DNA of 52,340 bases from Dyella sp. C11. GTDB lineage: Bacteria; Pseudomonadota; Gammaproteobacteria; Xanthomonadales; Rhodanobacteraceae. The stretch is from positions 56-52,395 of the forward strand of contig NZ_QAVX01000030.1 in the NCBI RefSeq assembly GCF_003121485.1, written 5' to 3'. The notes beneath the pieces are model-generated. The model saw nothing but the letters and a program-made list of their open reading frames with translations. It was not told the origin of the DNA and did no database searches. Positions 2,020-20,484 of the stretch are shown one piece after another. The stretch's first letter is position 1. Each line of letters begins with the position of its first letter. Made by a program: the position numbers and the translations under genes.

Positions 2020-3270
2020 CTACACCGCCCGCGTGGCCACCACGGGGGGCACCTCGGCAGCCCGCATGGCCGGCCCCAGCACGGCCAGCTGGCCCAGCAG
2101 CAGCACTAGCGCGCCGCCAATGGGCAGGTAGTTCCAGGGCAGGTGCGGCAGCTCGTAGTAGTGCATCAGCATGCCATTGGCCACATAGGCCAGCGCCATG
2201 CCGATCACCACGCCACCGCCGGCCACCAGCAGGTTTTCCAGCATGAAATAACGCAGCACCTGCGAGCGCCGCGCACCCAGCGCGCGCTGGATGCCGATGT
2301 GCCGTGTGCGCCGCTGCACCCAGAAACCGGTGAGCCCCATGATGCCGATGGCCGTAACCACGATCACCGCGAGCGTCACGCCGGCAAACAGCCACAGGGC
2401 GGCGCGTGCGCTGGCCAGGGCGTCGTGGCGTCGTTCGGCATAAGTGGAGATCTTCACCGGGAAGTCCTGCACCAGCTGATCGCCAAACTGACTCTTGATG
2501 GTGGCGCGGATGCCACGCAGCGCCACCTCGCGCATGGCCGGATCAATGCGCACAGCGAAGCTGAGCATCGACGTATCACCGATGCGCTTGGCAGTGAGCA
2601 CGGTGTCATCCGCCCGGCCATCCGTGGCGAGCGTCAGCTGATTGCGCATCAGGTGGCGCACCACTCCCACCACCATGTAGCCATGACCATCCGGCTCATC
2701 AGGAACGTCCACTATCTTGCCCACGGCCGGCTGGTTACCAAACAACTGCCTGGCCAGGGATTGCGTGATGATGAGAGGCTCGGCCGTCGACGTCGCGGGC
2801 AGGCTGCTGGAGTGCTCACTTACGCCGAAGTCGCGATATTCCTCAGGCAGAAAATCGCGCCCCGCCACAAGATCCACACCCAGCGTGTGGACGAGACCGA
2901 CACCGAAGTAACCGTTCACCCCCACCTTGGCGCCATGCGGCGATTGCAGCGTGTAATCGACGATCGTGGTGCCGATCATCGGCAAGCCCAGTGCCGCAGA
3001 GGCGGAACGCACGCCAGGCACGTGACTCAACGCAAGCTCCCCCGCACGCACTTCGGCCGCGGTCCAAGGGCGCACGTGCGACGCCATCTGGTCGATCAGC
3101 ACCAGCTCGTCTTCCGCAACGCCACTGGGTGCCACCATCGGCTGCACGCGCTGCCAAACCAGAAAAAGCACGTTACACAGGATGGCGCACGCCAGCGCCG
3201 TCTGAAACAACACCAGCGCGGGCATCAGCGCATGGCGGCGAAGTATCTTGAACATGATGCCAAGTGACAT
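2020..3270 (-). CDS. MacB-like ABC transporter permease, B type (B5)
   Basis: A 416-residue permease of the MacB/FtsX (type VII ABC) class, the last member of the array. One membrane segment lies near residues 15-40, then a large periplasmic MacB_PCD-like domain, then an FtsX domain with three membrane segments. The cytoplasmic coupling motif IGIQRALGARR is intact, and the protein ends VVATRAV. The start was set at 3270 because GGAGAA precedes it at good spacing and overlaps the TGA stop of A5 (TGAGGAG). It is the most diverged B-type copy (IQRALGA rather than VRRALGA). No ATPase domain is fused, so it must use the shared ATPase at 15027-15749 or another one. Confidence 0.9.
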   Translation of the reverse strand: MSLGIMFKILRRHALMPALVLFQTALACAILCNVLFLVWQRVQPMVAPSGVAEDELVLIDQMASHVRPWTAAEVRAGELALSHVPGVRSASAALGLPMIGTTIVDYTLQSPHGAKVGVNGYFGVGLVHTLGVDLVAGRDFLPEEYRDFGVSEHSSSLPATSTAEPLIITQSLARQLFGNQPAVGKIVDVPDEPDGHGYMVVGVVRHLMRNQLTLATDGRADDTVLTAKRIGDTSMLSFAVRIDPAMREVALRGIRATIKSQFGDQLVQDFPVKISTYAERRHDALASARAALWLFAGVTLAVIVVTAIGIMGLTGFWVQRRTRHIGIQRALGARRSQVLRYFMLENLLVAGGGVVIGMALAYVANGMLMHYYELPHLPWNYLPIGGALVLLLGQLAVLGPAMRAAEVPPVVATRAV

Positions 3271-3281
3271 TGTTCTTCTCC

Positions 3282-4613
3282 TCAGGCGCTCTTGACCTGC
3301 AGACCCGGTTCGATGCGCGACGCGCGCCACGCCGGCAGCCACCCCGTGATGATGCCTACCGCAAAGGCAAGCGCGAACAACGCACCAAACATCGCAGGAT
3401 CGAGCGTGGCCAGATCAGTGAAGCCACTGTCCTGAAGCCGCAGCGTCCACAACCCGAACAACGTCAACGGCAGCGCAAGAAAGCCTCCGAGCAGGCAAAT
3501 CATCGCCGCCTCGAACACATGTTGCTGAAAGATCGCTCGCTGAGGCGCACCCAGGGCGCGGCGTATGCCGATCTCCGCACTTCGACGCAGAAAGCGTGCG
3601 GCAAGCAGGCCCGCGACGTTGGCCATGCAAAGCAGCAAGAACGAACCGGCCAACCAGGCGTTGAGGCGTACGTTGTCGGGCACGACATTCTGCTGGCTCA
3701 GCCATGCATCCACACGGGTCAATTGCGCGGGCCTGGCATGTCCAGCGCCGACCAGTGCCTGCTGGTTGTCGAGATAGCGCTGCAGATACGCGAGAAAATC
3801 GGATGCCTTCGCGCGATCGGGCAAGTCCACCCAATAGCTCACCGAAGCACAGTACATGGGGTCGCTGGTGAACAGCGTTTTCGGCTTCGGTGAATCGACA
3901 TCGCAGCCATCGTCGCCGGCCAGGTCCACGCCGGCATCCAGCAGCGAACGAAGCGGCACAAAGGCTTGATCGCGGCGCAAGTTGCCGAAGGTAAACGAGG
4001 CCAGGTCGTAGAAATGTGGCTGTGGTGCAAACGGCGCGCTTACGCCGATGATGCGGAACACACCATGGCCAAGGTGAAATTCGCGTCCCAGTACATCGGT
4101 GGTGCCGTACAAGGAAACCGCCATCTCGCTGTCGATCACGACCACCGGAGCATGCGCCTGATCTTCGGCGGGCGTCCAGCTGCGGCCACTTCTAAGCGAT
4201 ACGCCTAACATCGGCAGGAACTCGCTGGTGGTGGCCAGCAGGTAGTCGCTTCCCTTGCGAGGCTTGTCCCCATCACTCTTGAATTGCGTAAAGACACTGG
4301 CCATGGGCGCCTGCCACGTGGCGCGGTGGTCATGCAGAAGCTCCTCCGCATCACGCAACTTGATGCGGTGGCGCTGATCCACCGTGATGCCGTTGAGCGA
4401 CTGGTTCTGCGTTGGCTTGGCGCGTACCGTATCCACCCACGCCAGATAAAGATGGCTGCTGCGCCCCGGCAGGGGATCGGCGGTGAGCTGATGCAACAAC
4501 GCCAGCGTCGTCATGGTCGCCGCCAACCCCATCGCGACGGTGACCACAGCCAATACCGTGCTTCGTGGAAACCGCTTCAAGCCGTGCCACGCCAACATCA
4601 GGTTGTAACGCAT
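3282..4613 (-). CDS. MacB-like ABC transporter permease, A type (A5)
   Basis: A 443-residue permease with an N-terminal membrane segment near residues 15-40, a long periplasmic domain and a C-terminal FtsX domain carrying EIGIRRALGAPQ. The C-terminus LQVKSA corresponds to the LQLKS(N/Q/L) end of the other A-type copies. It is the most diverged A-type member: its N-terminus MRYNLMLAWHGLKR is unlike the MFxYY start of A1, A3 and A4. It is separated from B4 by 69 bases that contain a 9-bp-stem hairpin, and its TGA stop lies inside the Shine-Dalgarno of B5. Probably forms a heteromer with B5 (inference from the pairing). Confidence 0.9.
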   Translation of the reverse strand: MRYNLMLAWHGLKRFPRSTVLAVVTVAMGLAATMTTLALLHQLTADPLPGRSSHLYLAWVDTVRAKPTQNQSLNGITVDQRHRIKLRDAEELLHDHRATWQAPMASVFTQFKSDGDKPRKGSDYLLATTSEFLPMLGVSLRSGRSWTPAEDQAHAPVVVIDSEMAVSLYGTTDVLGREFHLGHGVFRIIGVSAPFAPQPHFYDLASFTFGNLRRDQAFVPLRSLLDAGVDLAGDDGCDVDSPKPKTLFTSDPMYCASVSYWVDLPDRAKASDFLAYLQRYLDNQQALVGAGHARPAQLTRVDAWLSQQNVVPDNVRLNAWLAGSFLLLCMANVAGLLAARFLRRSAEIGIRRALGAPQRAIFQQHVFEAAMICLLGGFLALPLTLFGLWTLRLQDSGFTDLATLDPAMFGALFALAFAVGIITGWLPAWRASRIEPGLQVKSA

Positions 4614-4651
4614 CCGTTCCTACCCTGTTGTCCCATTCGCCCTTCCCCATC

Positions 4652-4674
4652 GCAACGCGCGCCTTGCGCGTTGC
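4652..4674 (-). other. intra-operon hairpin between B4 and A5
   Basis: GCAACGCGC and GCGCGTTGC form a perfect 9-bp stem with a 5-base loop in the 69-base gap between two permease pairs. No T-run follows. Likely an RNA structure that affects stability or read-through into the last pair. Confidence 0.6.
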
Positions 4675-4682
4675 GCCCCTGA

Positions 4683-5891
4683 TCACACCGACCGCGTCGC
4701 CACCACCGGCGGCACGTTGGCCGCACGCATGGCTGGCGCCAATACCGACAATTGACCCAATGCCCACAACACCACTGCCCCGGCCAGCAGGTAATAAACC
4801 GGAAGGCGAGGAACTTCGTAGAACTTCATCAGCAGAAGGTTGAGTGCAAACGTCATCACGATACCGATGGCGATACCCGCACTCACGATCAGGAAATTTT
4901 CCGTCTGAAAGTAATGCAGGATGTCACCGCGCGTCGCACCCATCGCCCGGCGAATACCAATCTGCTTGCGACGCTGCTGCACCCAGAAACTGGCAAGACC
5001 CACGATGCCCAGGGCGGTGACAAGCAACAAGGCGACGATGACACCGGCAAGTGTGCCGACCATCACGCGCGTCTGCCGGAAAAAGTCCGCCCGCAGCTCG
5101 GGCAACGTGCGACTCTGCTGCAGATCGAGCACCGCTTCCGGCGCAGCCCGCTGAGCGGCGACGCGCGCTTCACGCAGCACACGCGGAAGATCGATGGCGC
5201 TGGCACGCAGGACATAGACGCCGTGCAAAGAATCCCCAGGAAGCATCGGCGCGAACACGGACCATTCGCCGGCGCTGTCGCCGTGACCACCACCAGGGTC
5301 GGGAGGCGTCAGGTGCGCCAACACACCGATCACGCGGAAGTGGTATTTGTCGGACCAGAACTCCTTGCCCAACGGATCTTGCCCAGGCCACAGGCGCTGG
5401 GCGAAAGCGCGCGTTACCCACACCGAAGTGTTTTGGGGAAGCCACGATTCAGCTGTCTGAAAATCGTCCGCCTGGAAAGCGCGCCCGGCCATGAGTTGCA
5501 AACCGAGAGTTTCGGCTGCCCCGGGTCCACCCGCGTAGAAATGCGGCACGGCAATGAAGTGTTCCCGATCAAGACTGATGCCGGCATAGCCAGTGGGCTG
5601 GGCGAACGGCGCCGCATTGACCACCGCAACCGACTGCACGCCCGGCACGGCACGCAAGGCCGTGGTAACCCGCGCATTGAGGTCGGCACCCTTGCAGTCG
5701 TCACAACCAAGGTTGATCACGGCCAGCGAGGACTCGGCCACGCCGCTCTCGACATGCAGCGCACGCAGCTGTTGCACGATAAGAAAACACGCGTTGCACA
5801 ACACCGCACAAGCCAGTGCAATTTCAAACGCAATCAGCGCCGTGGCAAGCCGATGGCGGCGCAGGGCGGAAAGAATGGGAGCGAATTGCAT
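4683..5891 (-). CDS. MacB-like ABC transporter permease, B type (B4)
   Basis: A 402-residue permease with the layout membrane segment, periplasmic MacB_PCD-like domain, FtsX domain. The start MQFAPILSALRRHR matches the (D/Q)I.PIL(S/A).L(R/K)RHK start of B1-B3. The coupling motif KQIGIRRAMGATRGD has M in place of the usual L, and the end is PPVVATRSV. The start at 5891 is preferred because TGAGG, which includes the stop of A4, lies nine bases upstream. An ATG at 5906 overlapping the A4 stop is the alternative. The periplasmic half has a CDDC pair near residue 70 that was not noticed in the other copies. It is most like B3. Confidence 0.9.
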   Translation of the reverse strand: MQFAPILSALRRHRLATALIAFEIALACAVLCNACFLIVQQLRALHVESGVAESSLAVINLGCDDCKGADLNARVTTALRAVPGVQSVAVVNAAPFAQPTGYAGISLDREHFIAVPHFYAGGPGAAETLGLQLMAGRAFQADDFQTAESWLPQNTSVWVTRAFAQRLWPGQDPLGKEFWSDKYHFRVIGVLAHLTPPDPGGGHGDSAGEWSVFAPMLPGDSLHGVYVLRASAIDLPRVLREARVAAQRAAPEAVLDLQQSRTLPELRADFFRQTRVMVGTLAGVIVALLLVTALGIVGLASFWVQQRRKQIGIRRAMGATRGDILHYFQTENFLIVSAGIAIGIVMTFALNLLLMKFYEVPRLPVYYLLAGAVVLWALGQLSVLAPAMRAANVPPVVATRSV

Positions 5892-5902
5892 CACATGCGG
5901 CC

Positions 5903-7225
5903 TCATAGCGACTTCAGTTGCCAGGCCGGCATCACGCGACATGCCCGCACCGCCGGAAGCGCGCCGGCAAGCAGGCTGGCGCCGACCGCCGCAAGGAACG
6001 TGAGCAGGAACATGGATACGTCCAGCCTGGCCATATCCGCATAAGCCACCGGTTGCTGCCGGATAAACCAAAGCCCTGCAAGCGTAAGCAACCAGCCGCA
6101 CACGCCGCCGATGAAACCGATCAGGGCCGACTCCACCATGTATTGCGCGAACACCGCGGCACGACTTGCACCGAGCGCTCGGCGCAAGCCGATCTCCCCG
6201 CTACGGCGCAGGAATTTCGCCAGCAGCAGGCCCACCATGTTGACCAGGCAAATGGCCAGGAACGCCACGGCCAGCCACGCCTGCAATCGCACGTTGCTGG
6301 GAAGCACACCATTGAAATCAAGCCATTCCATCAGGCTGCGCATGCGTGTATTGCCGGCGTGCGTGAAACGCCCCATCGCCTGCTGCTGCGCAGCGTAATC
6401 GGCCACGAATCGTCGATAGGAAGCAACGCGTGAGGCATCGTTGAGCTGTACCCACAGCGCCACCCACACACAGGGTGAATCCTGCAGATGTCCCGGACGC
6501 GGAGGCATGGACCAGCAGGTGAACTGCTGGAAATTGCCGTCATTCACATCCAGGCCGGTAAAGAACGGCGTGATGACATCTTCCGGCTTGGCGTAGAAAT
6601 CGCTGGTGTCGCCCGCGGCGAAACGGCCGCCGCGCACAGCGTAGAACTGCGGCGACGGTCGCCAGGGCTTGAGCACACCCACGATGCGCACATCACTGTT
6701 GCGCAGCCGCAGCGCGCGACCCACGCTGTTCTCACCAGCGAACAATTTCTGGTTGAGATCATCGGTGATCACGGCCACGCGTGCGCGCGCCGCATCGTCC
6801 TGTTCGCTCCAGGGTCCGCCGTAACGGAACGGCACGTTGAACATGCTGAAGAAATCCGTCGTCGCCGACAGCATCGGCATCATCACGGCAGGCTTGCCGG
6901 CGTCGGCTGAATTGAGGCGCACCGTGCTCTGCACTACCAGCGCCTGCCGATCGGCGCGGCGGGCCGTCCACAGATCAACCGCCGAACGGTAATCGAGCAT
7001 GTCCAGCGGCTCGCTGCTGTCCTTGTTCTTCGGGTTCGCATCCACCTGCGGATAGAAGATGGACTGGCTTCGCCCAGGCAGCGGATCACCCGACAGAAGA
7101 TGCACCACGGTCAGCGTCGTCATGCTGGCACCGATGCCAACGGCAATGGCGAGCACCATCAGCGCCGTGAGCACCTTGTTGCGGCGGAGGCTATGGAAAG
7201 CCAGGTCGACGTAATAACCGAACAT
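5903..7225 (-). CDS. MacB-like ABC transporter permease, A type (A4)
   Basis: A 440-residue permease starting MFGYYVDLAFHSLRRNKVL, nearly the same as A3. The first membrane segment is near residues 18-42, a periplasmic domain follows, then an FtsX domain with GEIGLRRALGASRAAV and three membrane segments. The end AWQLKSL is the A-type signature. It lies 15 bases after B3, and its TGA stop forms part of the TGAGG ribosome site for B4. Expected to pair with B4 in the inner membrane and to be driven by the single ATPase of the operon (inference). Confidence 0.9.
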   Translation of the reverse strand: MFGYYVDLAFHSLRRNKVLTALMVLAIAVGIGASMTTLTVVHLLSGDPLPGRSQSIFYPQVDANPKNKDSSEPLDMLDYRSAVDLWTARRADRQALVVQSTVRLNSADAGKPAVMMPMLSATTDFFSMFNVPFRYGGPWSEQDDAARARVAVITDDLNQKLFAGENSVGRALRLRNSDVRIVGVLKPWRPSPQFYAVRGGRFAAGDTSDFYAKPEDVITPFFTGLDVNDGNFQQFTCWSMPPRPGHLQDSPCVWVALWVQLNDASRVASYRRFVADYAAQQQAMGRFTHAGNTRMRSLMEWLDFNGVLPSNVRLQAWLAVAFLAICLVNMVGLLLAKFLRRSGEIGLRRALGASRAAVFAQYMVESALIGFIGGVCGWLLTLAGLWFIRQQPVAYADMARLDVSMFLLTFLAAVGASLLAGALPAVRACRVMPAWQLKSL

Positions 7226-7240
7226 TCCCTGTTCCTCCCG

Positions 7241-8464
7241 TTACACCGACCGCGTGGCCACCACTGGCGGAACAGCCGCCGCGCGCATTGCCGGCCCCAG
7301 CACCGCCAATTGCCCAATGGTCCACAGCAACAGCGCACCCACCGGGAAATAGATCGCCGGCAGGCGCGGCAGCTCGTAGTGCACCATCAACAGCAGGTTG
7401 ATGCCGTAGGCGAGCACCATGCCCACCGCGATGCCGATAGTGGCGAGCAGGAAGTTTTCCGTCTGGAAGTAACGCAGGATGTTGCTGCGCGTGGCACCCA
7501 ATGCGCGACGCACACCAATCTGGCGGCGACGCTGCGCCACCCAGAAGCTGCCCAGGCCCACGATGCCCAGCGCCGTCACGACCAGCAGCGCCACGCACAC
7601 GCCCAGCAGCAGGCCTGCCATGGCGCGGTCGTTCTGGAAGAAGTCCTCGCGCATGTTGCTCAACAGATGCTGCTTGAGCACGATGCGGTGAGGGTTGATC
7701 TCCTTGAGCTTGGCAACGGCGGCCTTCAGCACGCGCTCCCGATTCTTCGGGTCATCCACGCGCACGATGTATTCGTTGTTGGCCACGCGCACCGGCAACA
7801 CCATGGTGTAGCTCTTGGCCGAGTCGTCCCAGATGGACGGCCGGATCAGCTCCTTCACCACACCCACCACGGTGAACGCGTAGTCGGACATGTAGATCTG
7901 CTTGCCCAGCGCCGACTGCCCCGGCCACAGGCGCTGGGCGAGGTTCTGCGTGATCACCGTGACATGTGGAATGCCCTTGGCATCCTTGGCGGCCGCGGCG
8001 GTGACCACCTGGTCCATGTCCATGTAGTCGTCCGGCTTCAGTTCGCGCCCGGCGATGAGTTGCGTGCCCAGGGTCTGCGTTACGTTCTCGCCGAAATAGT
8101 CCGTGGCATTGGCCGTGGCGAGTCGCTGCTTGGGATCGAGCTTGATGCTGCCGTTGGACGAAGAGTTGCCGAACGGCACCTGGTTCACCGACGCCACCGA
8201 CACCACGCCCGGCACCTGCTGAAGCGCGGCCAGGTCTTCGGCACGGCGGGCCTTGTCGTCCTTGGTCACGCCGATGTTGGTCAGCGCGATGTGCAGCAGG
8301 TGCTGCTCATCCACGCCGCTTTCCATGTTGATGCGGTCGATGCGCTGGTTGATGATGAATACCGCGTTGCACACGATGGCGCAGGTCAGGGCGATTTCCG
8401 CGATCACCAGGAAAGCGGTGGTCTTGTGCCGGCGCAACGTCGAGAGAATGGGAAGAATGTCCAT
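7241..8464 (-). CDS. MacB-like ABC transporter permease, B type (B3)
   Basis: A 407-residue permease starting MDILPILSTLRRHKTT, with a membrane segment near residues 17-40, a periplasmic domain and an FtsX domain carrying RQIGVRRALGATRSN. It ends PPVVATRSV. An ATG six bases earlier (8470) overlaps the stop of A3. The later ATG was chosen because GAAGAG lies nine bases before it, the same spacing as at B4. This is the one pair in which the A stop is not embedded in a TGAGG ribosome site. Closest relative in the window is B4. Confidence 0.9.
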   Translation of the reverse strand: MDILPILSTLRRHKTTAFLVIAEIALTCAIVCNAVFIINQRIDRINMESGVDEQHLLHIALTNIGVTKDDKARRAEDLAALQQVPGVVSVASVNQVPFGNSSSNGSIKLDPKQRLATANATDYFGENVTQTLGTQLIAGRELKPDDYMDMDQVVTAAAAKDAKGIPHVTVITQNLAQRLWPGQSALGKQIYMSDYAFTVVGVVKELIRPSIWDDSAKSYTMVLPVRVANNEYIVRVDDPKNRERVLKAAVAKLKEINPHRIVLKQHLLSNMREDFFQNDRAMAGLLLGVCVALLVVTALGIVGLGSFWVAQRRRQIGVRRALGATRSNILRYFQTENFLLATIGIAVGMVLAYGINLLLMVHYELPRLPAIYFPVGALLLWTIGQLAVLGPAMRAAAVPPVVATRSV

Positions 8465-8466
8465 GA

Positions 8467-9771
8467 TCATTGGCTCTTCAGTTGCAACGCGGGAGTGATC
8501 TGGCAGGCGCGCCAGGCCGGCAGAAGACCAGCCAGCAAGGTGGAACCCACCGCCAGCAGGAAAGTGAACGTCAACATGCCCACGCTCATGTGCGCGAGCG
8601 CGGCGTAGTCGGACGGCTGCTTGCGCACCAGCCACAGCCCCACGAACGCCAGCAGCAATCCGCAGAAACCGCCGGCCAGGCCGATCACGCCCGACTCCAC
8701 CAGCAGCTGCATGAAGACCTCGCGCTTGGATGCACCCAGCGCGCGGCGCACGCCCAGCTCGCCCGATCGGCGCAGGAATTTCGCCAGCATCAGCCCGACC
8801 GTATTGACCAGGCACACCAGCAGGAAGCCCAACGCCAGCCATGCCTGCAGGCGCACGTCGCCCGGCACGACCTTGTTGATGTCCATCCATTCCATCAGGC
8901 CGGGCAGCGCGACATTCGGCGGACGCTGGAATCGGCCCAGCGTCTTCTGCTCCTGCGAATAATGCACAAGGTAATCGTGATATGCCTTCACCTTGTCCGC
9001 GCCATCGATCTGCACCCAGAACTGCAACCAAGTGCACGGCGAGGTTTCCGCATGCTCGTCATCGCCACCGCCCGTGCCCCAGCAATCGGTGGAACCTGAA
9101 TGTTCGAAGTGCACGTCGCGCGATGTGCTGAGCGGCACGAACACGTCTTCCACCGAACCGTAGCTCTGCATGTAGATGTCGTAGAAACGCGGCGTCGGCT
9201 TCCATTCGTCCAGCACGCCAATCACCTGGAACGCCGTGTCTTTCATGCGCAGCGTCTGACCGGTGCTGTCCTTGCCGCCGAACAGCTTTTCGTTGAGCTT
9301 GCGACTGATGACGACCACCCGCGCCCGCGAATTGTCCTCGCCCTCCGTCCACGGGCGGCCATACATGAACGGCACCTTGAACATGGGAAAGAAATCGCTG
9401 CTGGTGTAGCGCGCGTCGCTGAAGAACGGATCAATGTTGGACTGTGCTGGCTGCACCGGCACCGCACCACCGGTCATCAATGCCTGGCGATCGGCGCGCT
9501 TGGCATGCAGCAGGTTCAGGCCATCCGTCCAGGTCACCTGGTCGGCAGGGCGTTTGCCCTCTTCGTAGCCATCCATGTCACGCGGATCGACCTGCGGATA
9601 GAACAGCGAGTCGCTGGTGCCCGGGAGCGGGTCGCCCGACAACACGTGCAACACGGTCAGCGTGGTCATGCTGGCGCCGATGCCCAGCGCAATGGCCAGC
9701 ACCATCAGCGCGGTCAGGATCTTGTTGCGCCTGAGGCTGCGTAGCGCCAAATCCAGGTAATAGCCAAACAT
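8467..9771 (-). CDS. MacB-like ABC transporter permease, A type (A3)
   Basis: A 434-residue permease starting MFGYYLDLALRSLRRNKIL. The first membrane segment (MVLAIALGIGASMTTL) is followed by GDPLPGTSD, then a periplasmic domain, then FtsX with GELGVRRALGASKREV and three membrane helices, ending ALQLKSQ. The periplasmic domain has a glycine-rich acidic stretch (TGGGDDEHAE) that was not noticed in the other A-type copies. It sits 30 bases after B2, and its stop is two bases before the B3 start chosen here. Confidence 0.9.
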   Translation of the reverse strand: MFGYYLDLALRSLRRNKILTALMVLAIALGIGASMTTLTVLHVLSGDPLPGTSDSLFYPQVDPRDMDGYEEGKRPADQVTWTDGLNLLHAKRADRQALMTGGAVPVQPAQSNIDPFFSDARYTSSDFFPMFKVPFMYGRPWTEGEDNSRARVVVISRKLNEKLFGGKDSTGQTLRMKDTAFQVIGVLDEWKPTPRFYDIYMQSYGSVEDVFVPLSTSRDVHFEHSGSTDCWGTGGGDDEHAETSPCTWLQFWVQIDGADKVKAYHDYLVHYSQEQKTLGRFQRPPNVALPGLMEWMDINKVVPGDVRLQAWLALGFLLVCLVNTVGLMLAKFLRRSGELGVRRALGASKREVFMQLLVESGVIGLAGGFCGLLLAFVGLWLVRKQPSDYAALAHMSVGMLTFTFLLAVGSTLLAGLLPAWRACQITPALQLKSQ

Positions 9772-9801
9772 GTCGTCTCCCCTTCCCTTGATGGCTGACG
9801 G

Positions 9802-11031
9802 TCACACCGACCGTGTCGCCTCGACCGGCGGCACGCGCGAAGCGCGAAGCGCCGGAGCCAGCACCGCCCCCTGTCCCAGCAACAACAGGATCAACACGCC
9901 TGCAAGCAGATACGCCAGCGACAGCCGGTGCATCTCGAAGCGAGTGACCATCCACAGATTGATCGCGATCGCGAGCAATGCGCCGAACAACACGCCGCCA
10001 CAGCTGATCAAGAAGTTTTCCGTCATGAAGTACCGCAGGATGTCCTTCTGCGTTGCACCCAGTGCACGCCGCACACCGATCTGCTTGCGCCGCTGCCCCA
10101 CCCAGAAGCTGGTCAAGCCGACGATGCCCGCCGCCGTAATCGCCAGCAGCACCAGGCAGATCACACCCATCAGCAACGCCATGCCACGATCCCCTTCATA
10201 GGCTTTGGCACGAATCGTCGCGTAGCTCTGAACGCCATCGTCGTCGTTGATGATGCGGCGCGGATTGGACTTGAAGAGCGCCTCCGGCGCTGCGCGCATC
10301 ACGGCATCGAGCTGGCCCGGCTGGGCGCGCACGATGTAGAACACGCCCAGCGAGACCGCCAATCGCTTAGGCACGATGATGGAACGCCACGCGAATGCTG
10401 ACGCCCAGCGCTCCACGCTTTGCGACTGCAGCAGCTCGACCTCACCGATGATCGTGGTGGGGTTGCCGACGAAGTACACCGTCTTGCCGACAGCGTCACC
10501 GTTGGGGAACAGCTTGTCGGCAAGCGGCTTGGTGACGATCGCCACCGGCGGTGCCAGGCGATCGCGGACATCCATCGCGGTGATTTCTTCAGGCCGGAAG
10601 TTGCGGCCCGCGATCAAAGGGATGTCCAGCGTGTTGAGGAAATGATCGTCGCCGAAATAGACAGCCGCACCGCTCGTGTCCTTGACCTGGTCGGGCGTGA
10701 GCTTGATGCCATCGTCCCAGCCGCCACCACGCAGGGGGAAGGAATTGCTCGACGTGGCATCGGCGACGCCCGGCAATTCGCGAAGAACACGCAGGTCCTC
10801 CCGCATCATCGCGTCCGCACGTTGCGATGACGGTGAACCCACCCACTCATTGGTGATCACGAACGTATTGGCCTCATCCACGCCCGTGGGTTCGGAAAGA
10901 TGCGCCAGGCGCTGCTGGATGATGAAAAGCGCGTTGCACACGATGGCCAGCGTCAGCGCGATCTGCAGCGCGATGAGCACCGTGCCGGCCTTGTGGCGTC
11001 GCAATGCGGAAAGGATGGGCTTGATATCCAT
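9802..11031 (-). CDS. MacB-like ABC transporter permease, B type (B2)
   Basis: A 409-residue permease starting MDIKPILSALRRHKAGTVL. The FtsX half contains GLTSFWVGQRRKQIGVRRAL, identical to B1 over this stretch, and the end is PPVEATRSV. The overall layout is one N-terminal membrane segment, a periplasmic domain near residues 45-270, and three C-terminal membrane segments. The start is well supported by GGAGGAGG; the A2 stop codon is also within a TGAGGCGG run just upstream. B1 and B2 are clearly the closest pair among the B-type copies. Confidence 0.92.
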   Translation of the reverse strand: MDIKPILSALRRHKAGTVLIALQIALTLAIVCNALFIIQQRLAHLSEPTGVDEANTFVITNEWVGSPSSQRADAMMREDLRVLRELPGVADATSSNSFPLRGGGWDDGIKLTPDQVKDTSGAAVYFGDDHFLNTLDIPLIAGRNFRPEEITAMDVRDRLAPPVAIVTKPLADKLFPNGDAVGKTVYFVGNPTTIIGEVELLQSQSVERWASAFAWRSIIVPKRLAVSLGVFYIVRAQPGQLDAVMRAAPEALFKSNPRRIINDDDGVQSYATIRAKAYEGDRGMALLMGVICLVLLAITAAGIVGLTSFWVGQRRKQIGVRRALGATQKDILRYFMTENFLISCGGVLFGALLAIAINLWMVTRFEMHRLSLAYLLAGVLILLLLGQGAVLAPALRASRVPPVEATRSV

Positions 11032-11044
11032 GGCCTCCTCCGCC

Positions 11045-12367
11045 TCAGTTGGATTTCAGCTGCCAGGCGGGCTGCACTTGCGCCGCCCGCCAGGTGGGGT
11101 AGAACGCTGCCAGCACCGTCGCAACAATCGCCAGCAGCAGCGCAAGCAACACCAGCGGCACGTCCAGGTGCGCCAGGCGCGCAATGTGCGGCTCGAACAC
11201 CAGGCCGACGCCGAGCATGCCGATGGCCGTCAGCACGACGCCCAGCAAGCCGCCCGCCACTCCCACCATGCTCGCCTCGGCAAGGAACTGCCGGTAAATG
11301 TCCGCCCTCGATGCGCCCAGCGCTCGCCGCACGCCAATCTCCGGCGCACGGCGCATGAACTTGGCCAGCAACAGGCCAATCGTGTTGACCAGGCAGATGA
11401 CCAGGAAACCCAGCGCCAGTGTCAGCGAGATGCGGCTCTCGGGCGGCACGGCACCTTCATAGTCGAGCCATTCGTGCACGTTGCGCAGGCGGTTGTTGGG
11501 CGCCCAGTTGAAGCGCCCGGCGCTCTGCTGTTCCTTTGCATAGCCATCCAGGAATTGCCGATACGCCTGCACCTGCGCGGCGCTATCCAGTTCCACCCAC
11601 GGGCTGATCCACACACACTCCCCGCGCACCCAGCCGTCGTGAGCGTCGCCGCGCTTGCCGTCGCTGCCGCAGTTGTTGTTGCCGTACGTATCGACTTTCT
11701 GGTCGATGGCCAGCGTGAACGGGATATAGATCTCCACGGCATTGGCGTAGGCGTTGCCGCTGAACATGTCGTAGAAGCGCGGCTTGGGATCCCAATCTTC
11801 GGTGACGCCGACAATGCGGTAGGCATGGTCGTCCATGGTGATTTCGCGTCCGACGCTGTTGGCGCCGGCGAACAGCTTCTGGTTGAGCGAACGGCTGATC
11901 ACCACGACGGACGAGCGCGACTCATCCTCGGCGCCGCCCCAGCTGCCGCCGTACTGGAACGGCACCTCGAACATGCTGAAGAAATCGTTGTACGTCGCAT
12001 AACCCTGTGCCTTGAACGGCATGCGGTGTTCGTCCGCCGGCATCACCGACAGGCCGATGGCGTAGAGCACGGTCTGATGCGGGGCTTTGTGCGCACGCAT
12101 CAGTGCCACGGCATCGGTGTAGTTGAGCGCTTCAGGCGGCTCGCCGTTGCGGTTGTACTGCGGCCCGCGGTTGTCGATCTGCGGCACGAAGAGCTGCGCC
12201 GACTTCTGCGGTATGGGATCGCCCGATACCGCACGGAACACGGCAAACGTCACCATGGAGGCCGCAACGCCGAAGCCGATCGACATGATCATCAATGCCG
12301 TCAGCAGGACGTTGCGCCTCAGGCTTGCCGCGCCCAGTCGCAAGTTGTGGACAAACATGCCGCTCAT
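11045..12367 (-). CDS. MacB-like ABC transporter permease, A type (A2)
   Basis: A 440-residue permease starting MSGMFVHNLRLGAASLRRN; GAGG lies five bases before this ATG, and an internal ATG at codon 4 is a weaker alternative. The first membrane segment is near residues 22-45. The FtsX domain carries PEIGVRRALGASRADI and three membrane helices, and the end AFYPTWRAAQVQPAWQLKSN is identical to that of A1. The central domain keeps ...RFNWAPNNRLRN..EWLDYE, matching RFRWAPNTRLRN..EWLDYQ in A1. It lies 42 bases after B1. Confidence 0.92.
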   Translation of the reverse strand: MSGMFVHNLRLGAASLRRNVLLTALMIMSIGFGVAASMVTFAVFRAVSGDPIPQKSAQLFVPQIDNRGPQYNRNGEPPEALNYTDAVALMRAHKAPHQTVLYAIGLSVMPADEHRMPFKAQGYATYNDFFSMFEVPFQYGGSWGGAEDESRSSVVVISRSLNQKLFAGANSVGREITMDDHAYRIVGVTEDWDPKPRFYDMFSGNAYANAVEIYIPFTLAIDQKVDTYGNNNCGSDGKRGDAHDGWVRGECVWISPWVELDSAAQVQAYRQFLDGYAKEQQSAGRFNWAPNNRLRNVHEWLDYEGAVPPESRISLTLALGFLVICLVNTIGLLLAKFMRRAPEIGVRRALGASRADIYRQFLAEASMVGVAGGLLGVVLTAIGMLGVGLVFEPHIARLAHLDVPLVLLALLLAIVATVLAAFYPTWRAAQVQPAWQLKSN

Positions 12368-12409
12368 GGATACCTCATTCCGCTTCGACGCGACGCACGC
12401 ACCAACCCT

Positions 12410-13642
12410 TTACACCGAACGCGTGGCTTCCACCGGCGACACGCGCGAAGCACGCATGGCCGGCGCCAGCGTGGCGCCCTGGCCCAGGCCCAATAGCGCA
12501 ACCACGCCGATCAACACGTACGTCACCGACAACCGCGCCATCTCGAACTGCGTCACCAGCCACAGGTTCATGCCCACCGCCAGCAGCGCGCCGATGACCA
12601 CGCCCGCCACGCCAATCAGCAGGTTTTCGGTGAGGAAATAGCTGAGAATGTCGCGCTTGGTCGCACCCAGCGCACGACGTACGCCGATCTGCTTGCGACG
12701 CTGGCCCACCCAGAAGCTGGTCAGGCCGACGATGCCTGCGGCCGTAATGCCCAACAGCACCAGGCACACCACGCCCATCAGGATGGCCATGCCGCGGTCG
12801 CCCTTGTATGCGTACTCGCGCACCTCGGCAAACGTACGCACGCCACGCTCGCTCGGGATCACGCGCATGCGGTTCGTCTTTACCAACGCCGCAGGTGCCG
12901 CCTTGACCAGGTCAGCCAACTGCCCCGGCTTCGCGCGGATGAGATAGTTGGTGAACGCGCTGGTGAGCTGCACGGGCTGGATCAACGAGTTCTCATAGAA
13001 CGAATCGGACCACGTGCCATTCCACGGCACCTGAAGACGCTCGACGATGCCGATGATGGTCGACGGCGTCTTGGAGTCGCCGATGTACATCGTCTTGCCC
13101 AGCGCCGAACCGTCCGGATACATCTTGTCGGCCAGCGCCTTGCTCACGATGATCACCGCCGGGTCCGGCAGCGCCTGCGGATCGGCTTCCACGATCTCGT
13201 CCGAACGGAAATTGCGGCCGGCAATCAGCTTGAGCGCCATGGTGCCCAGTGCGTGTTCATCGCCGAAGTATTGCGTGGTGTGTGCCTTGGAATTCTTGGC
13301 GTCCACGTCCGTACGCACGCCAGTGGACCAGCCACCGCCGCGCAACGGATAGGAGTTCATGGCTACCGCGTCCTGCACGCCCGGCAACTGGCGCAGGGCC
13401 ACCAGGTCCGCCTTCACCAGCGGGCCGGCCTGGGTTTCCTGCGTGCCCACGAAGCGGCTCTGTATGGCGAGCAGGTCACTTTCCACCATGCCGGTGGGGC
13501 GCTGCACGCGCTCCAGTCGCTGATGGATGATGAAAATGGCGTTGCAGACGATGGCCAGCGTCAAGGCGATCTGCATCGCGATGAGGATGGTGCCTGCCTT
13601 GTGGCGCTTGAGCGCGGCGAGAATGGGTTTGATCTGCAGCAT
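12410..13642 (-). CDS. MacB-like ABC transporter permease, B type (B1)
   Basis: A 410-residue permease starting MLQIKPILAALKRHKAGTIL. The membrane segment near residues 18-40 is followed by a periplasmic domain with PLRGGGWSTG, which is PLRGGGWDDG in B2. The FtsX domain carries KQIGVRRALGATKRD, and the protein ends SPVEATRSV. Its ribosome site TGAGG overlaps the stop codon of A1, with eight bases to the ATG. Together with A1 it forms the first, ATPase-proximal pair of the array. Confidence 0.92.
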   Translation of the reverse strand: MLQIKPILAALKRHKAGTILIAMQIALTLAIVCNAIFIIHQRLERVQRPTGMVESDLLAIQSRFVGTQETQAGPLVKADLVALRQLPGVQDAVAMNSYPLRGGGWSTGVRTDVDAKNSKAHTTQYFGDEHALGTMALKLIAGRNFRSDEIVEADPQALPDPAVIIVSKALADKMYPDGSALGKTMYIGDSKTPSTIIGIVERLQVPWNGTWSDSFYENSLIQPVQLTSAFTNYLIRAKPGQLADLVKAAPAALVKTNRMRVIPSERGVRTFAEVREYAYKGDRGMAILMGVVCLVLLGITAAGIVGLTSFWVGQRRKQIGVRRALGATKRDILSYFLTENLLIGVAGVVIGALLAVGMNLWLVTQFEMARLSVTYVLIGVVALLGLGQGATLAPAMRASRVSPVEATRSV

Positions 13643-13652
13643 CGTCGTCGCC

Positions 13653-14966
13653 TCAGTTGGATTTCAGCTGCCATGCCGGCTGCACCTGCGCAGCACGCCA
13701 TGTGGGATAGAAGGCTGCCAGCACCGTCGCCAGCACGGCGACCAGCATCGTCAGCAGCACCAGCGACACATCGAGCGTGGCGAGCTTGGCGATGTCCGGT
13801 TCGAACACCAGCGACACGCCCATCACGCCGAAGCCGGTCAGTACCAGGCCCACGACGCCGCCCGCCAGGCCAATCGCAGCGGCTTCGATCAGGAACTGGA
13901 TGTAGATTTCCTTGCGGGTCGCACCCAGCGCACGGCGCACGCCGATTTCCGACGAGCGGCGCATGAACTTCGCCAGCAACAGGCCAACCGTGTTCACCAG
14001 GCAGAGCAGCAGGAAACCCAGCGACACCATCAGCGAAACCTTGGCTTCCTGCGGCACCACCTTCTGGTAGTCCAGCCACTCGGTCACGTTGCGCAGCCGC
14101 GTATTGGGTGCCCAGCGGAAGCGGCCCGAGCGCTGCTGTTCGGCGGAATAGCCGTTGAGATACTGGCGATAGGCACCCGCTTCCGACTTCGTCGGCAATT
14201 CGGCCCAGAAACCCACCCATACGCATTCGGAACGAATCCACGCATCCCAGCCCTTGCCCGGATCGTGATTGCAGTTGTTGTTGCCGTTGGTCGTCGTCTG
14301 CAGCTCCACCGCGCGCGTGAACGGAATGAACACCTGGATCGGATCGTCAAAACCGTTGGTATTGATCACGTCGTAGAACACGGGTTCCGGGTTCCATTTT
14401 TCCGTCACGCCGACGATGCGGTAATCGCGACCGTTGAGGTTGATGTTCTTGCCCACGCTGTTGGTGCCGTTGAACAGCTTGTCGTTGAGCGTCTTGCCGA
14501 TCACCGCAACCGCGGCATGCGAATCGTCTTCGCCGGACGTCCACGCATGGCCGTAGAGGAAAGGAATGTCGAACATGCCGAACGCATCCGCGTACCAGGC
14601 GTAGCTGGTCTCGCGGAACGGCAGCATGGACGGGTCCGTCGGCACGATGGACATGGCCGCGGGAAACAATGCCGTCTGGTGCGACGCACGCTTGTCGCGC
14701 ATCAGGTTGATGGCGTCGGTGTACGTCATGGCATTGGGCGGCTCGCCCTTGTTGTCCTCGTTCGATTCCGGGCCCCAGTTATCGATCTGCGGCACGTACA
14801 GCTGCGAGGACTTCTGCGGAATGGGGTTGTTCGACGTGGCGCGGAACACCGAGTAGGTGGTCATGGAGGCGGCCACGCCACAGCCGATCGCCAACACCAT
14901 CAGCAGGGTCAACAGCGGATTTTTTCGGAGGCTGCGCAAGCCAAGCTGCAGGTAGTAGGCGAACAT
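13653..14966 (-). CDS. MacB-like ABC transporter permease, A type (A1)
   Basis: A 437-residue permease and the first of the ten. It starts MFAYYLQLGLRSLRKNPLL, with a membrane segment near residues 17-40 (MVLAIGCGVAASMTT) and then a periplasmic domain. The FtsX domain from about residue 310 has SEIGVRRALGATRKE (residues 339-353) and three membrane helices. It is 60 bases after the ATPase gene, with a hairpin in the gap. Unlike canonical MacB, it has no N-terminal nucleotide-binding domain. Function is inferred from family: moving a substrate across or out of the inner membrane or periplasm by mechanotransmission. Confidence 0.92.
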   Translation of the reverse strand: MFAYYLQLGLRSLRKNPLLTLLMVLAIGCGVAASMTTYSVFRATSNNPIPQKSSQLYVPQIDNWGPESNEDNKGEPPNAMTYTDAINLMRDKRASHQTALFPAAMSIVPTDPSMLPFRETSYAWYADAFGMFDIPFLYGHAWTSGEDDSHAAVAVIGKTLNDKLFNGTNSVGKNINLNGRDYRIVGVTEKWNPEPVFYDVINTNGFDDPIQVFIPFTRAVELQTTTNGNNNCNHDPGKGWDAWIRSECVWVGFWAELPTKSEAGAYRQYLNGYSAEQQRSGRFRWAPNTRLRNVTEWLDYQKVVPQEAKVSLMVSLGFLLLCLVNTVGLLLAKFMRRSSEIGVRRALGATRKEIYIQFLIEAAAIGLAGGVVGLVLTGFGVMGVSLVFEPDIAKLATLDVSLVLLTMLVAVLATVLAAFYPTWRAAQVQPAWQLKSN

Positions 14967-14992
14967 GGTCGTCCTTCAGCAGAAGATAACCG

Positions 14993-15012
14993 CCTCCCGC
15001 ACGGGCGGGAGG
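14993..15012 (-). other. intra-operon hairpin between ATPase and permease A1
   Basis: CCTCCCGC and GCGGGAGG make a perfect 8-bp stem with a 4-base loop in the 60-base gap between the ATPase stop and A1. Without a T-run it is more likely an RNA-processing or stability element, which might set the ratio of ATPase to permeases, than a terminator. Confidence 0.6.
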
Positions 15013-15026
15013 CCAGGTGGTCGATA

Positions 15027-15749
15027 TCAGGCGGGCGAATTGGCGCGGGCAGCGTGCACGGCCTGGTGGAAGCGCGGGTCTTCCGCCAGATCCACCACCT
15101 GACCGTCGATGATGTGCACGTTGCGCTGGGCGCGGGCGGCGAGTTCCGGATCGTGCGTCACCATGACGATGGTGGCGCCTTCGCGATGGATCTCTTCCAG
15201 CAGCTCCATCACACCACGCGCCATTTGCGTATCGAGGTTGCCGGTGGGTTCGTCCGCCAGCAGCAGGCGCGGCGAACCGGCGAGTGCGCGGGCAATGGCC
15301 ACGCGCTGCTGCTGACCACCGGAAAGCTCGGCCGGATAGTGCTTGGCGCGCGAGGCCAGGCCCACGCGCTCCAGCGCATTCATGATGCGCTCCTTGCGCT
15401 CCGGCGCCTTCATGCCGCGATAGCGCAGCGGCACTTCCACGTTGTCGAACACGTTGAGGTCGGGAATGAGGTTGAACGCCTGGAAGATGAAGCCGATCTT
15501 CTCGTTGCGGATCTTCGAGCGCTCGTTGTCGTTGAGGTTGCTCACTTCCACGCCATCGAGGTGGTACTGGCCACCTGTGAAGGTTTCCAGCAGGCCGGCG
15601 ATGGTGAGGAAGGTGGTCTTGCCCGAACCGGACGGACCGGTGACCGCGACGAACTCGCCTTCGTTCACGTTGATGTTGAAGTCGCGCAGCGCGTAGGTCT
15701 CCACCACTTCGGTGCGGTAGACCTTGGACAGATGGGTCATCTTGAGCAT
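15027..15749 (-). CDS. ABC transporter ATP-binding protein, MacB/LolD type
   Basis: A 240-residue cytoplasmic ATPase that should energise the permeases of this operon. Visible motifs are Walker A GPSGSGKTT near residues 35-43, the Q-loop IFQAFNL, the signature LSGGQQQRVAIARAL, Walker B LLLADEPTGNLD and the H-loop VTHDPE. The pattern is that of the MacB/LolD/FtsE class. The start was set at the ATG at 15749 because AAGGA lies eight bases upstream; a GTG at 15764 is the longer alternative. It is the only ATPase gene in this array and follows the adaptor by 28 bases. A single ATPase serving several permease pairs is an inference. Confidence 0.93.
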   Translation of the reverse strand: MLKMTHLSKVYRTEVVETYALRDFNINVNEGEFVAVTGPSGSGKTTFLTIAGLLETFTGGQYHLDGVEVSNLNDNERSKIRNEKIGFIFQAFNLIPDLNVFDNVEVPLRYRGMKAPERKERIMNALERVGLASRAKHYPAELSGGQQQRVAIARALAGSPRLLLADEPTGNLDTQMARGVMELLEEIHREGATIVMVTHDPELAARAQRNVHIIDGQVVDLAEDPRFHQAVHAARANSPA

Positions 15750-15777
15750 GGTTGTGTCCTTCACTCGTTAGTGGTGT

Positions 15778-17049
15778 TTAGTTGCTGATGGCGACGCGCT
15801 GTGCGCCCTTGAAGCTGTCGGTACCGGAGATCACGATGTTGTCGCCTTCCTTCAGGCCATCGAGGATTTCCACCTTGTCGATGCTGCTGGCGCCGACGCG
15901 GATGGGATGCTTTTCCGCCACGCCGTCGCGTACCAGGTAGGCATAGCTGCCACCGGATTCGTCGACGAACGAGCCGCGCTGCACGGTGAGCACGTTGTCG
16001 CGCTTGTCGAGCAGGATGCGCACGGAAAGGCGTTGGTTCTGGCGCAGCTGTTTGGGCGTCTGGCCGTCGAAGCGCAGGCGGGCGGCAACTTCGCCATTCA
16101 CCACTTCGGGCGAAATGGCGCTGACCAGGCCCTTCCACGTGTTGCCGTTGCCGCTGATCTCGCCGGTCATGCCGATGCCCAGGTCGCGCGCGAAACTTTC
16201 CGGCACCTTCATTTCCACTTCGAGTGCGGAGAGGTCGATGACGCTGAGCAGCTGTGCGTCCTTGGCGACCGTGGCGCGTTCGGCGATGAAGAGCTGGCCG
16301 ACCTGGCCGTCCACCGGCGACTTCACGTTGAGGTCGTCCACCTGGCGCTGCAGGTCTTTCACCAGCAGCAGCTGACGATCGTGTGCGAGCTTCTTGGACT
16401 GGATGTCGAAATTCAGGCTGTCGGTGTTGGTGGCCAGGTCCGTCTTGGCGTGCTCAAGCGTGATGCGCATCTTCTCGAGCGTGTCCTTGGCCTTGTCCAC
16501 GTCCATGCTGGGCACGGCGCCCTGCGAGAAGGCCTTCTGGTAGCGGGCCAGGTCGCGCTGTGCGCCCTGCTCGTCGATGTTGGCGTTGTCGTACGCCTTC
16601 TCCAGCTCGCCCTTGGTCTTGCGCGCCTCGATCTGCGCCTTCAGGTAATCCACCTGCATGGCGTCGGCGGCGCTTTCTTCCTGCGCAAGCTTGTTGGTGA
16701 GTTCGGGGCTGTCGATGACGGCTAGCACCTGCTGCTTCTTCACCGGATCGCCCGCGTGCACCTTCAGCGTCACCGCGCCGCCATAGACGGCGTACAAGGT
16801 GGGGCTCACCGCGGCGACCACCTTGCCTTCGGCGGCGATGTCGCGAACGAACGGGCCGCGCTCCACGGTGGCAAAGGCAAGACGCGAGCTGCTGACCGAG
16901 GCCTCGGCCGAGAACAGGCGGCCAATGCGCGGACCAAACAGCGCGAGCAGCGCCAGCACGGCAACGCCGATGCCGATCGCCATGAAGCGGCGCTTGCGGT
17001 TGGGTTTGACCTCGACCAGACGGTCTTGAGCAGAGGTATCGCGAATCAT
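15778..17049 (-). CDS. periplasmic adaptor protein, MacA/HlyD (RND-type MFP) family
   Basis: A 423-residue membrane-fusion protein, the first gene of the operon. A basic N-terminus (NRKRRF) is followed by one membrane anchor near residues 23-42. Then come a first lipoyl-like half (TLKVHAGDPVKKQQVLAVID), a long alpha-helical hairpin of about 120 residues, the second lipoyl half (LNVKSPVDGQVGQLF), a beta-barrel and a membrane-proximal domain. The long hairpin suggests docking to a TolC-type outer membrane channel, but no such gene is in the operon. The ATG at 17049 has AGGGA at good spacing; a TTG at 17073 is the longer alternative. A sigma-54 promoter lies about 45-60 bases upstream. Confidence 0.92.
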   Translation of the reverse strand: MIRDTSAQDRLVEVKPNRKRRFMAIGIGVAVLALLALFGPRIGRLFSAEASVSSSRLAFATVERGPFVRDIAAEGKVVAAVSPTLYAVYGGAVTLKVHAGDPVKKQQVLAVIDSPELTNKLAQEESAADAMQVDYLKAQIEARKTKGELEKAYDNANIDEQGAQRDLARYQKAFSQGAVPSMDVDKAKDTLEKMRITLEHAKTDLATNTDSLNFDIQSKKLAHDRQLLLVKDLQRQVDDLNVKSPVDGQVGQLFIAERATVAKDAQLLSVIDLSALEVEMKVPESFARDLGIGMTGEISGNGNTWKGLVSAISPEVVNGEVAARLRFDGQTPKQLRQNQRLSVRILLDKRDNVLTVQRGSFVDESGGSYAYLVRDGVAEKHPIRVGASSIDKVEILDGLKEGDNIVISGTDSFKGAQRVAISN

Positions 17050-17094
17050 CGATGGGTCCCTGGCCGCGGACAATGCGGCCCCTGACCCTTGTCA

Positions 17095-17109
17095 GCAATC
17101 TGCGTGCCA
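17095..17109 (-). promoter_or_regulatory. sigma-54 (RpoN) promoter of the adaptor-ATPase-permease operon
   Basis: On the minus strand the sequence TTGGCACGCAGATTGCT matches the sigma-54 consensus: TGGCAC (-24 box, 17104-17109), five bases, TTGC (-12 box, 17095-17098). Predicted transcription would start near 17083, about 34 bases before the adaptor ATG. No matching sigma-70 promoter stands out here. Such promoters need an enhancer-binding activator; no gene for one is in the window. Confidence 0.85.
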
Positions 17110-20289: not shown

Positions 20290-20484
20290 GGGACTCGCTC
20301 CGATCATTAGGGGGTGAATCAGGATGCCAAGCGGGCGCCGTGGAGTCCACGCCGTGCGTCCCCCTGGCGTGACCCGACGATCATTCCCCGAGTTCCCCGT
20401 GCCTGTAAACTGGAAGCGCCGATCCTCCGAAACGTCAAGGCGTTATCCCGGGCTTCGGCGTCCGACAAGGGGAAACAGGGGTTT

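Follow-up and report, generated by a model that had tools for sequence, protein, structure and literature searches.

How can a transporter locus that encodes one ATPase and one adaptor accommodate ten permeases? This question is raised by a gene array of the soil bacterium Dyella sp. C11, located on contig NZ_QAVX01000030.1 within a stretch of 52,340 nucleotides that was analysed as a whole and is hereafter called the window. We addressed it computationally, through the architecture of the array, its variable pair number in relatives, the co-inheritance of pairs, the promoter sequence, a hairpin, an orphan pair elsewhere in the genome, and predicted folds. From these data, the array probably encodes a modular tripartite MacB-type (type VII) exporter, in which one ATPase and one adaptor would be shared by exchangeable heterodimers of two permease types, A and B.

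Array architecture

The ten permease genes all lie on the minus strand of the window (2020-14966) and all exceed the Pfam cut-off for PF02687 (FtsX); nine of them also match MacB_PCD, P10 being recognized as FtsX only. In the order of transcription, the locus runs from the adaptor (17049-15778), which has a conserved IRDT just past its start, through the ATPase (15764-15027) and the permeases (14966-2020) to a DUF885 gene (1936-137). The adaptor, ATPase and permease genes are as follows:

15778..17049, minus strand: adaptor (MacA/DarC-like membrane-fusion protein), which opens the array; HlyD_D23 and HlyD_3, TIGR01730 above cut-off, MacA as best solved relatives
15027..15764, minus strand: sole array ATPase; PF00005 (E 3e-32), with Walker A, LSGGQ, Walker B and THD all present
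13653..14966, minus strand: P1, type A, pair 1; MacB_PCD and FtsX, AlphaFold2 predicted local distance difference test score (pLDDT) 83.5, top fold match MacB 5gko
12410..13642, minus strand: P2, type B, pair 1; FtsX and MacB_PCD, AlphaFold2 pLDDT 90.2, top fold match MacB 5gko
11045..12367, minus strand: P3, type A, pair 2; Pfam and type hidden Markov model (HMM)
9802..11031, minus strand: P4, type B, pair 2; Pfam and type HMM
8467..9771, minus strand: P5, type A, pair 3; Pfam and type HMM
7241..8470, minus strand: P6, type B, pair 3; start within a longer open reading frame (ORF), 7241-9037, with a 4-nt overlap with P5
5903..7225, minus strand: P7, type A, pair 4; Pfam and type HMM
4683..5906, minus strand: P8, type B, pair 4, with RRAMGA; start within a longer ORF, 4683-6101
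3282..4613, minus strand: P9, type A, pair 5, the most diverged, in a variable pair; Pfam, type HMM and tree
2020..3270, minus strand: P10, type B, pair 5, with QRALGA; start within ORF 2020-3342, FtsX match only

Types A and B were assigned by scoring against type HMMs built from the array's own permease genes, and alternate A-B five times with a separation of 256-697 bits; the type B model behind these values was made of four true B sequences and one out-of-frame reading of P10, which itself scored 294 vs 38. For the wider survey of non-Dyella loci, the type models were rebuilt from true reading frames. The FtsX coupling motif reads RRALGA in all five A and three of the B permeases, RRAMGA in P8 and QRALGA in P10. 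Several of the listed ORFs open too early, the likely starts being 8470 for P6, 5906 for P8 and 3270 for P10, and with these starts P5-P6 and P7-P8 overlap by 4 nt and leave no gap.

An initial annotation, made from the sequence alone, had described ten MacB-like permeases on one strand behind a separate ATPase and one adaptor, which Pfam scans confirmed, as well as a coupling motif of the RRALGA, QRALGA or RRAMGA form in all ten permeases, which we recovered. The fivefold A-B alternation that it proposed also stands, whereas its gaps of 2-69 bases do not hold for the two overlapping pairs of genes. Its statement that no permease looks decayed was borne out by the ratio of nonsynonymous to synonymous substitution rates (dN/dS) between the window and genome G007, which is 0.07-0.24 for the permeases and indicates purifying selection. 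Decay of the window permeases is excluded by the same values, though broken members exist in genomes G127 and G145. Since the array genes are open in 20 Dyella arrays (one truncated at a contig end) and under purifying selection, the array is not a chance arrangement.

Pair number in relatives

Across 81 non-duplicated arrays, 1 to 11 A-B pairs accompany one adaptor and one ATPase each, one of these ATPases being frame-split. Within Dyella, two of 20 genomes carry three pairs, 13 carry four (one cut by a contig end) and five carry five, with one adaptor and one ATPase in every case. The wider GTDB family was represented by 147 genomes of 26 genera, of which 140 gave a strong adaptor match (E <= 6e-87) and seven, including the single g23 genome, a weak adaptor match alone (E 6e-21 or worse). 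Counted after extension of cut arrays, 40 family representatives have one (14 genomes), two (1), three (3), four (5), five (3), six (6), seven (2), eight (3) or nine (2) pairs, with one array cut by a contig end. In fifteen further genomes, from the genus-level groups g18 and g22, the number ranges from 4 to 11, the 11 pairs of G070 amounting to 22 permeases behind one ATPase. Pair counts outside Dyella refer to matches on the adaptor's strand; nine genomes were recounted on merged pieces, G036, G068, G082, G108, G128 and G146 were counted on unmerged overlapping pieces, and the count for G040 may be a lower bound, as its array may run past the end of the piece.

Outside the family, 274 genomes of the same class added six carriers (E 1e-40 or better), five with one pair and the sixth (same order) with four. 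A survey of 397 Pseudomonadota genomes, in which at most four candidates per genome were scored and copy numbers are thus lower bounds, found a match in 30, all of the same class or closer. In the A tree, rooted on four single-pair outgroups, the order contributes 15 single-pair rows; ten of these together make up the earliest branch, so that multiplication of the A-B pair looks derived, and the remaining five nest inside. The initial annotation had read the array as a modular exporter and named differing pair numbers in relatives with an intact ATPase as the test of this reading. The test came out positive, with 3, 4 or 5 pairs in Dyella and 1-11 in 61 further arrays, and this variation beside one ATPase and one adaptor each supports modularity.

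Inheritance of A-B pairs

Distances among A proteins across arrays closely follow those among their B partners (r = 0.917), against r = 0.185 when partners are shuffled within arrays (standard deviation 0.030, maximum 0.284 of 1000 shuffles); four of 164 A rows, which had no full B partner, were dropped from this set. Likewise, for 133 of 138 A proteins the partner of the nearest relative is also the nearest B protein of that array, with 28.3 expected. Gene spacing, taken up to where the HMM match begins, shows the same pairing, with a median of 5 nt from A to B (n=340) and 52 nt from B to A (n=273). Some genomes are counted twice in these two counts and in those over 146, 161 and 124 below.

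In quick tree searches with Shimodaira–Hasegawa-like approximate likelihood ratio test (SH-aLRT) support, as used for all trees here, pairs 1, 2 and 3 each come out as a single clade with all 20 Dyella genomes represented, in the A tree as well as in the B tree (two cut B rows were left out of the latter). This excludes gene conversion or recent copying among these pairs. Pairs 4 and 5 come and go within the genus, the fourth pair of G013 for instance being of the pair-5 kind, and in other genera the A tree places the same kinds of pair at other array positions.

Search for further ATPases

PF02687 has 19 matches in the whole genome: the ten array permeases, the two genes of a pair on contig C24, and seven more. 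The closest paralog of the array ATPase in its own genome is 47% identical, and each of the five best paralogs (contigs C11, C3, C41, C42 and C44) adjoins an FtsX gene of its own, so that no spare close ATPase for pairs 2-5 or for the C24 pair is visible among the six best paralogs, the range of this check, with about thirty weaker matches beyond it. ATPases dedicated to each pair elsewhere in the genome, named in the initial annotation as evidence that would overturn sharing, were thus not found among the best paralogs, the 47% one having its own FtsX gene. Hence one ATPase gene accompanies several permease complexes with no other close candidate, save for one paralog on contig C12 (39% identical). 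Among 124 scored array ATPases, 123 keep all four motifs, L150 being without THD.

Within single genomes, 134 comparisons of type A paralogs gave identities of 80% for the coupling helix, 55-59% for transmembrane helices TM1 and TM2, and 39% for the periplasmic domain. A conserved helix beside a diverged periplasmic domain is consistent with one motor driving different “grippers”, and the seven FtsX domains elsewhere in the genome have visibly different motifs at this helix. Coupling-helix conservation was also considered as proof of a shared ATPase, and we retain it as weak support.

A related pair outside the array

The A-B pair on contig C24 is intact. Its neighbours are a BlaI repressor and an M56 peptidase of the BlaR1 type, regulators that stand with the orphan A gene at all five loci examined. 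An ortholog of this A gene (69-100% identity) is found in 15 of 20 Dyella genomes and is absent from G006, G008, G011, G016 and G017; the orphan B gene was typed at two loci. In the family A tree, orphan A groups with six in-array A proteins of other genera (SH-aLRT 99), and orphan B falls in a six-row set with support 99 and has four of the same in-array pairs as its nearest neighbours after the other orphan. No array-type ATPase was detected around the orphan pair at the two loci scanned (L021 and L166; 13.5 and 16 kb). The simplest reading would be that a pair of the array kind now resides elsewhere and uses the array ATPase in trans. Control of the orphan pair by sigma-54 was sought and not found.

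Promoter, hairpin and adjoining genes

Three non-coding elements were recognized in the window:

17094..17109, minus strand: sigma-54 -24/-12 promoter, TGGCAC-N5-TTGCT, some 60 nt upstream of the adaptor start
17176..17187, no strand assigned: palindrome TGTCCGCGGACA, candidate enhancer-binding-protein site, 78 nt upstream of the -24 element
14992..15013, minus strand: GC-rich hairpin separating the ATPase gene from P1, candidate element for RNA processing or stability, or leaky terminator

A strict sigma-54 site is present in all 60 non-duplicated family arrays (the window, L001-L019 and L027-L066) and in 139 of 146 loci overall, against none of 146 reverse strands and 0.09 expected from shuffling. 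Five of the seven misses lie outside the family, where one of six loci has the strict site. A tie between sigma-54 and FtsX-type ABC permeases at the level of COGs is reported in passages of a 2025 study (PMC12316311). The palindrome TGTCCGCGGACA or a close variant stands further upstream, mostly by 76-82 nt, in 129 of the 139 loci with a strict promoter. Of 20 Dyella genomes, 18 have palindrome and promoter at the array spacing, and in G005 and G018 the combination occurs again at another place; a reversed control pattern gave no match. An enhancer-binding protein gene beside the arrays was sought by a motif scan of the loci, in which the only such gene was that of L169, a region chosen for holding it, and a scan for sigma-70-type promoters inside the array returned none above threshold.

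Two further places in the same genome carry similar signals. At the first (L168:4164-4175, contig C45), the same palindrome, GTGTCCGCGGACAC, precedes a methyltransferase-like ORF with a TolC-like ORF behind it, and a strict sigma-54 site is absent; the array and TolC may be under common control. A second combination of palindrome and sigma-54-like sequence, with a spacing of 79 nt, close to that of the array (L167:4179-4272, contig C20), lies about 0.4 kb before SCP2 and ABC1-kinase ORFs, inside an unassigned ORF of the opposite strand.

Within Dyella, a stem of at least 7 bp is found in the ATPase-permease gap of 18 of 20 arrays, as compared with eight of 62 B-to-A gaps and five of 12 adaptor-to-ATPase gaps, and in G016 the hairpin is retained with a different sequence. 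By analogy with repetitive extragenic palindromic (REP) elements, which set such gene-product ratios, the hairpin, which divides the shared parts from the permeases, may set their ratio. A full terminator is unlikely, as genes follow it; a leaky one is a candidate, the hairpin being listed as terminator-like with a weak T-rich tail.

On the downstream side, one gene may belong to the same unit:

137..1936, minus strand: DUF885 protein (PF05960) with a signal-peptide-like start, 83 nt past the last permease

It is possibly the last gene of the array unit. Of 19 other Dyella arrays, 18 have a DUF885 gene no more than about 0.4 kb past the last permease, some single-pair genera have one too, and the total is 26 of 65 loci. 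Solved relatives of the protein are labelled lipoproteins or uncharacterised, and a role as zinc peptidase was rejected since the sequence has no HExxH. On the upstream side, a 195-aa protein without Pfam match (17221-17808, minus strand) is encoded directly upstream of the sigma-54 promoter, and a homologous frame precedes the adaptor in 62 of 79 named loci. Further along, two adjoining proteins (20314-21723 and 21855-23120, plus strand) match DIE2/ALG10 (E 2e-25 and 4e-29), a family of eukaryotic glucosyltransferases.

Folds and relation to known systems

AlphaFold models of P1 and P2 are best matched by Acinetobacter MacB (5gko), followed by 5xu1 and by other MacB and LolCDE structures, with 5nik near the top. 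Together with the joint MacB_PCD and FtsX matches of nine of the ten permeases, these folds identify MacB-like permeases with a large periplasmic domain. In the type A alignments, this domain contains two invariant cysteines (C232 and C248 in P1), possibly forming a disulfide. Against the NCBIfam model of ADOP (acidobacterial duplicated orphan permease, TIGR03434), P3-P10 divide by type, A aligning with the first half (positions 2-401; best stretch for P9, 247-396) and B with the second (410-801), which makes an A-B pair the equivalent of a single two-FtsX permease divided into two chains.

The array resembles several characterized systems, and its best scores stay below the cut-offs of their family models. 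As in MacAB-TolC, the adaptor is nearest to MacA among solved structures, the A and B folds are nearest to MacB, and some genera encode TolC within the array unit; unlike in MacAB-TolC, the ATPase is unfused, the permeases come as two types in A-B pairs, and 1-11 pairs accompany one adaptor and ATPase. For the MacB equivalog NF007826 the best score is that of the array ATPase (217.9 bits, cut-off 966), and for the MacA equivalog the adaptor reaches 65 bits (cut-off 342), although MacA is its nearest solved protein. The darobactin exporter DarBCD likewise has a separate ATPase, adaptor and permease, and DarD is the best NCBIfam model for the array ATPase, whereas the array permease is split into A and B and multiplied. 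Scores were 259.8 of 375 for DarD, 79.2 of 450 for DarC and at most 33.9 of 700 for DarB, and no darobactin-type biosynthesis enzyme was found among the 28 window ORFs scanned. LolCDE is similar in combining a heterodimeric permease with a separate ATPase, has one pair per ATPase and no known adaptor of the array kind, and was again below cut-off (lolCE at most 31.8 of 362, LolD 221.6 of 307.8). ADOP shares with the array the two aligned halves and, with the Dyella orphan pair, the lack of a nearby ATPase, but is one fused chain where A and B are separate chains; P3-P10 score 134-188 bits with its model (cut-off 622.3). ADOP, as that model describes it, is not known to occur beside an ATPase.

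YbbAP-TesA also combines two permease units per complex with a separate ATPase, as described in PMC5985334 and PMC12646458, but its permease is fused and encoded by a single gene per ATPase. A single ATPase powering several permease complexes is known from MsmX/MsmK of CUT1 sugar importers and from MceG of Mce importers, which are, unlike the array, importers with other folds. Such multitask ATPases were, according to PMC7658222, known as of 2020 exclusively from CUT1 importers, and MceG is a further importer case (PMC9947336).

TolC and a possible link to dssA

A TolC-type gene (PF02321) stands between ATPase and permeases in 30 of 161 ATPase-bearing loci, some of them from the Rhodanobacter group. 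The window has no TolC gene, and a TolC-like ORF on another contig of the same genome is 49% identical to the in-array one. In genus g7 (L034:2-829), a partial TolC-like gene (42% identical) is located directly upstream of the adaptor, and not behind the ATPase.

Passages of a report on Rhodanobacter R179 describe dssA, a root immune-modulation gene annotated as “ABC transporter permease”, in a 17-gene operon, and state that plant immune responses were suppressed less well once this one permease was deleted (PMC11928319). In two genomes of the Rhodanobacter-group g22 (G118 and G096), the adaptor, ATPase, TolC and seven pairs amount to exactly 17 genes. Given this gene number and the annotation, dssA is likely to be a permease of the array described here. 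FtsX, MacB, ATPase and TolC do not occur in the main text of PMC11928319, and its passages on dssA contain no description of the array. Should dssA belong to the array, losing a single permease has a phenotype, which would mean that the pairs are not redundant.

Proposed mechanism and alternative explanations

Under the modular-exporter reading, each A-B pair would form a heterodimeric permease, the split equivalent of fused DarB, ADOP or YbbP, and any pair would bind two copies of the array ATPase and dock on one adaptor-TolC conduit, so that ATPase and adaptor would be physically shared. Transport would proceed by mechanotransmission, the mode by which MacB pumps according to passages of PMC5985334, with the permease closing on a periplasmic substrate and pushing it up the conduit, i.e. 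in the export direction. Divergent periplasmic domains would pick different substrates, while motor, adaptor and exit duct would be common to all pairs. One sigma-54 promoter with its enhancer-binding site would turn the unit on, the hairpin past the ATPase may keep the shared parts in excess over any single permease, and pairs would be gained, lost, reordered and moved as cassettes. The Dyella orphan pair, under a BlaI/BlaR1-type regulator and without an ATPase, would then borrow that of the array.

The large mixed assembly that the initial annotation had offered as an alternative, in which A and B would associate regardless of pair or all join a large hetero-oligomer around a single adaptor, would suit the position of all permeases behind one promoter, and the transmembrane and coupling regions of type A paralogs are similar enough for cross-pairing to be conceivable. 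It is not supported, however, because A and B are inherited as fixed pairs despite changed pair order; the Dyella A and B trees moreover give the same position clades, A-to-B spacing is tight where B-to-A spacing is loose, and one pair exists alone as an orphan, leaving this alternative distinctly improbable. We also consider unlikely a scenario in which the pair nearest the ATPase alone is powered, the others being unpowered sensors, decoys or users of other ATPases. Pair content past pairs 1-3 does vary, as this would allow, and permeases without an adjacent ATPase make up a named family, ADOP. Yet all ten permeases keep the coupling motif under purifying selection, no spare close ATPase was found, and, should dssA belong to the array, a phenotype already follows from losing one permease (passages of PMC11928319). 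Tandem duplication of the permease genes of an ordinary DarBCD or MacAB exporter for dosage, with redundant function, would fit the early-branching single-pair rows that make multiplication derived, but the pairs are old, distinct lineages that hold the same positions in Dyella, and type A periplasmic domains are just 39% identical between paralogs, so that we regard this explanation as very unlikely indeed.

Several observations nonetheless weigh against a modular exporter with a shared motor. The single ATPase gene could power only some of the pairs; the sixth-best ATPase paralog, on C12, lies on a contig without an FtsX match; and coupling-helix conservation is partly generic, being common in FtsX-type permeases. 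Broken genes occur, with two A genes split in frame in G127 (L186/L187), one A short in G145 (L188/L189), and the ATPase of G084 (L056) split between two frames, possibly by sequencing error. The sigma-54 site is one base off the strict pattern in Luteibacter loci L118 and L128, and the hairpin is less specific in 40 other arrays, where it occurs in 12 of 24 ATPase-to-A, 24 of 90 B-to-A and 12 of 37 adaptor-to-ATPase gaps. For the orphan pair, the Dyella-only A tree puts the long-branched orphan into the pair-3 clade (support 92), the lack of a nearby ATPase comes from two loci, and the orphan locus has no palindrome match and sigma-54-like matches at chance level, so that the pair need not be co-expressed with the array ATPase.

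Implications

Separate ATPases, heterodimeric permeases and adaptor-TolC pumps are each already known. A literature search that was thin on subscription journals turned up no earlier type VII exporter in which several permease pairs are reported to depend on one ATPase. On balance, we give roughly even chances to the broadest interpretation of these data, namely a plug-in exporter whose adaptor-ATPase-(TolC) core serves up to eleven heterodimers, including trans-acting ex-operon pairs. This would be the first shared motor in the type VII/MacB superfamily. It would also offer a way to account for “orphan” FtsX permeases that lack an ATPase, ADOP among them, and in Xanthomonadales commensals it would be the apparatus responsible for dssA-dependent modulation of plant root immunity. 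Were dssA an array gene, the system would gain a published phenotype, as given in passages of PMC11928319. Since natural arrays range from 1 to 11 pairs, the shared-motor idea is directly testable. If it is true, the “orphan” FtsX permeases of databases may simply draw on a shared motor, and exporter specificity would evolve through the addition of permease cassettes while the motor is kept.

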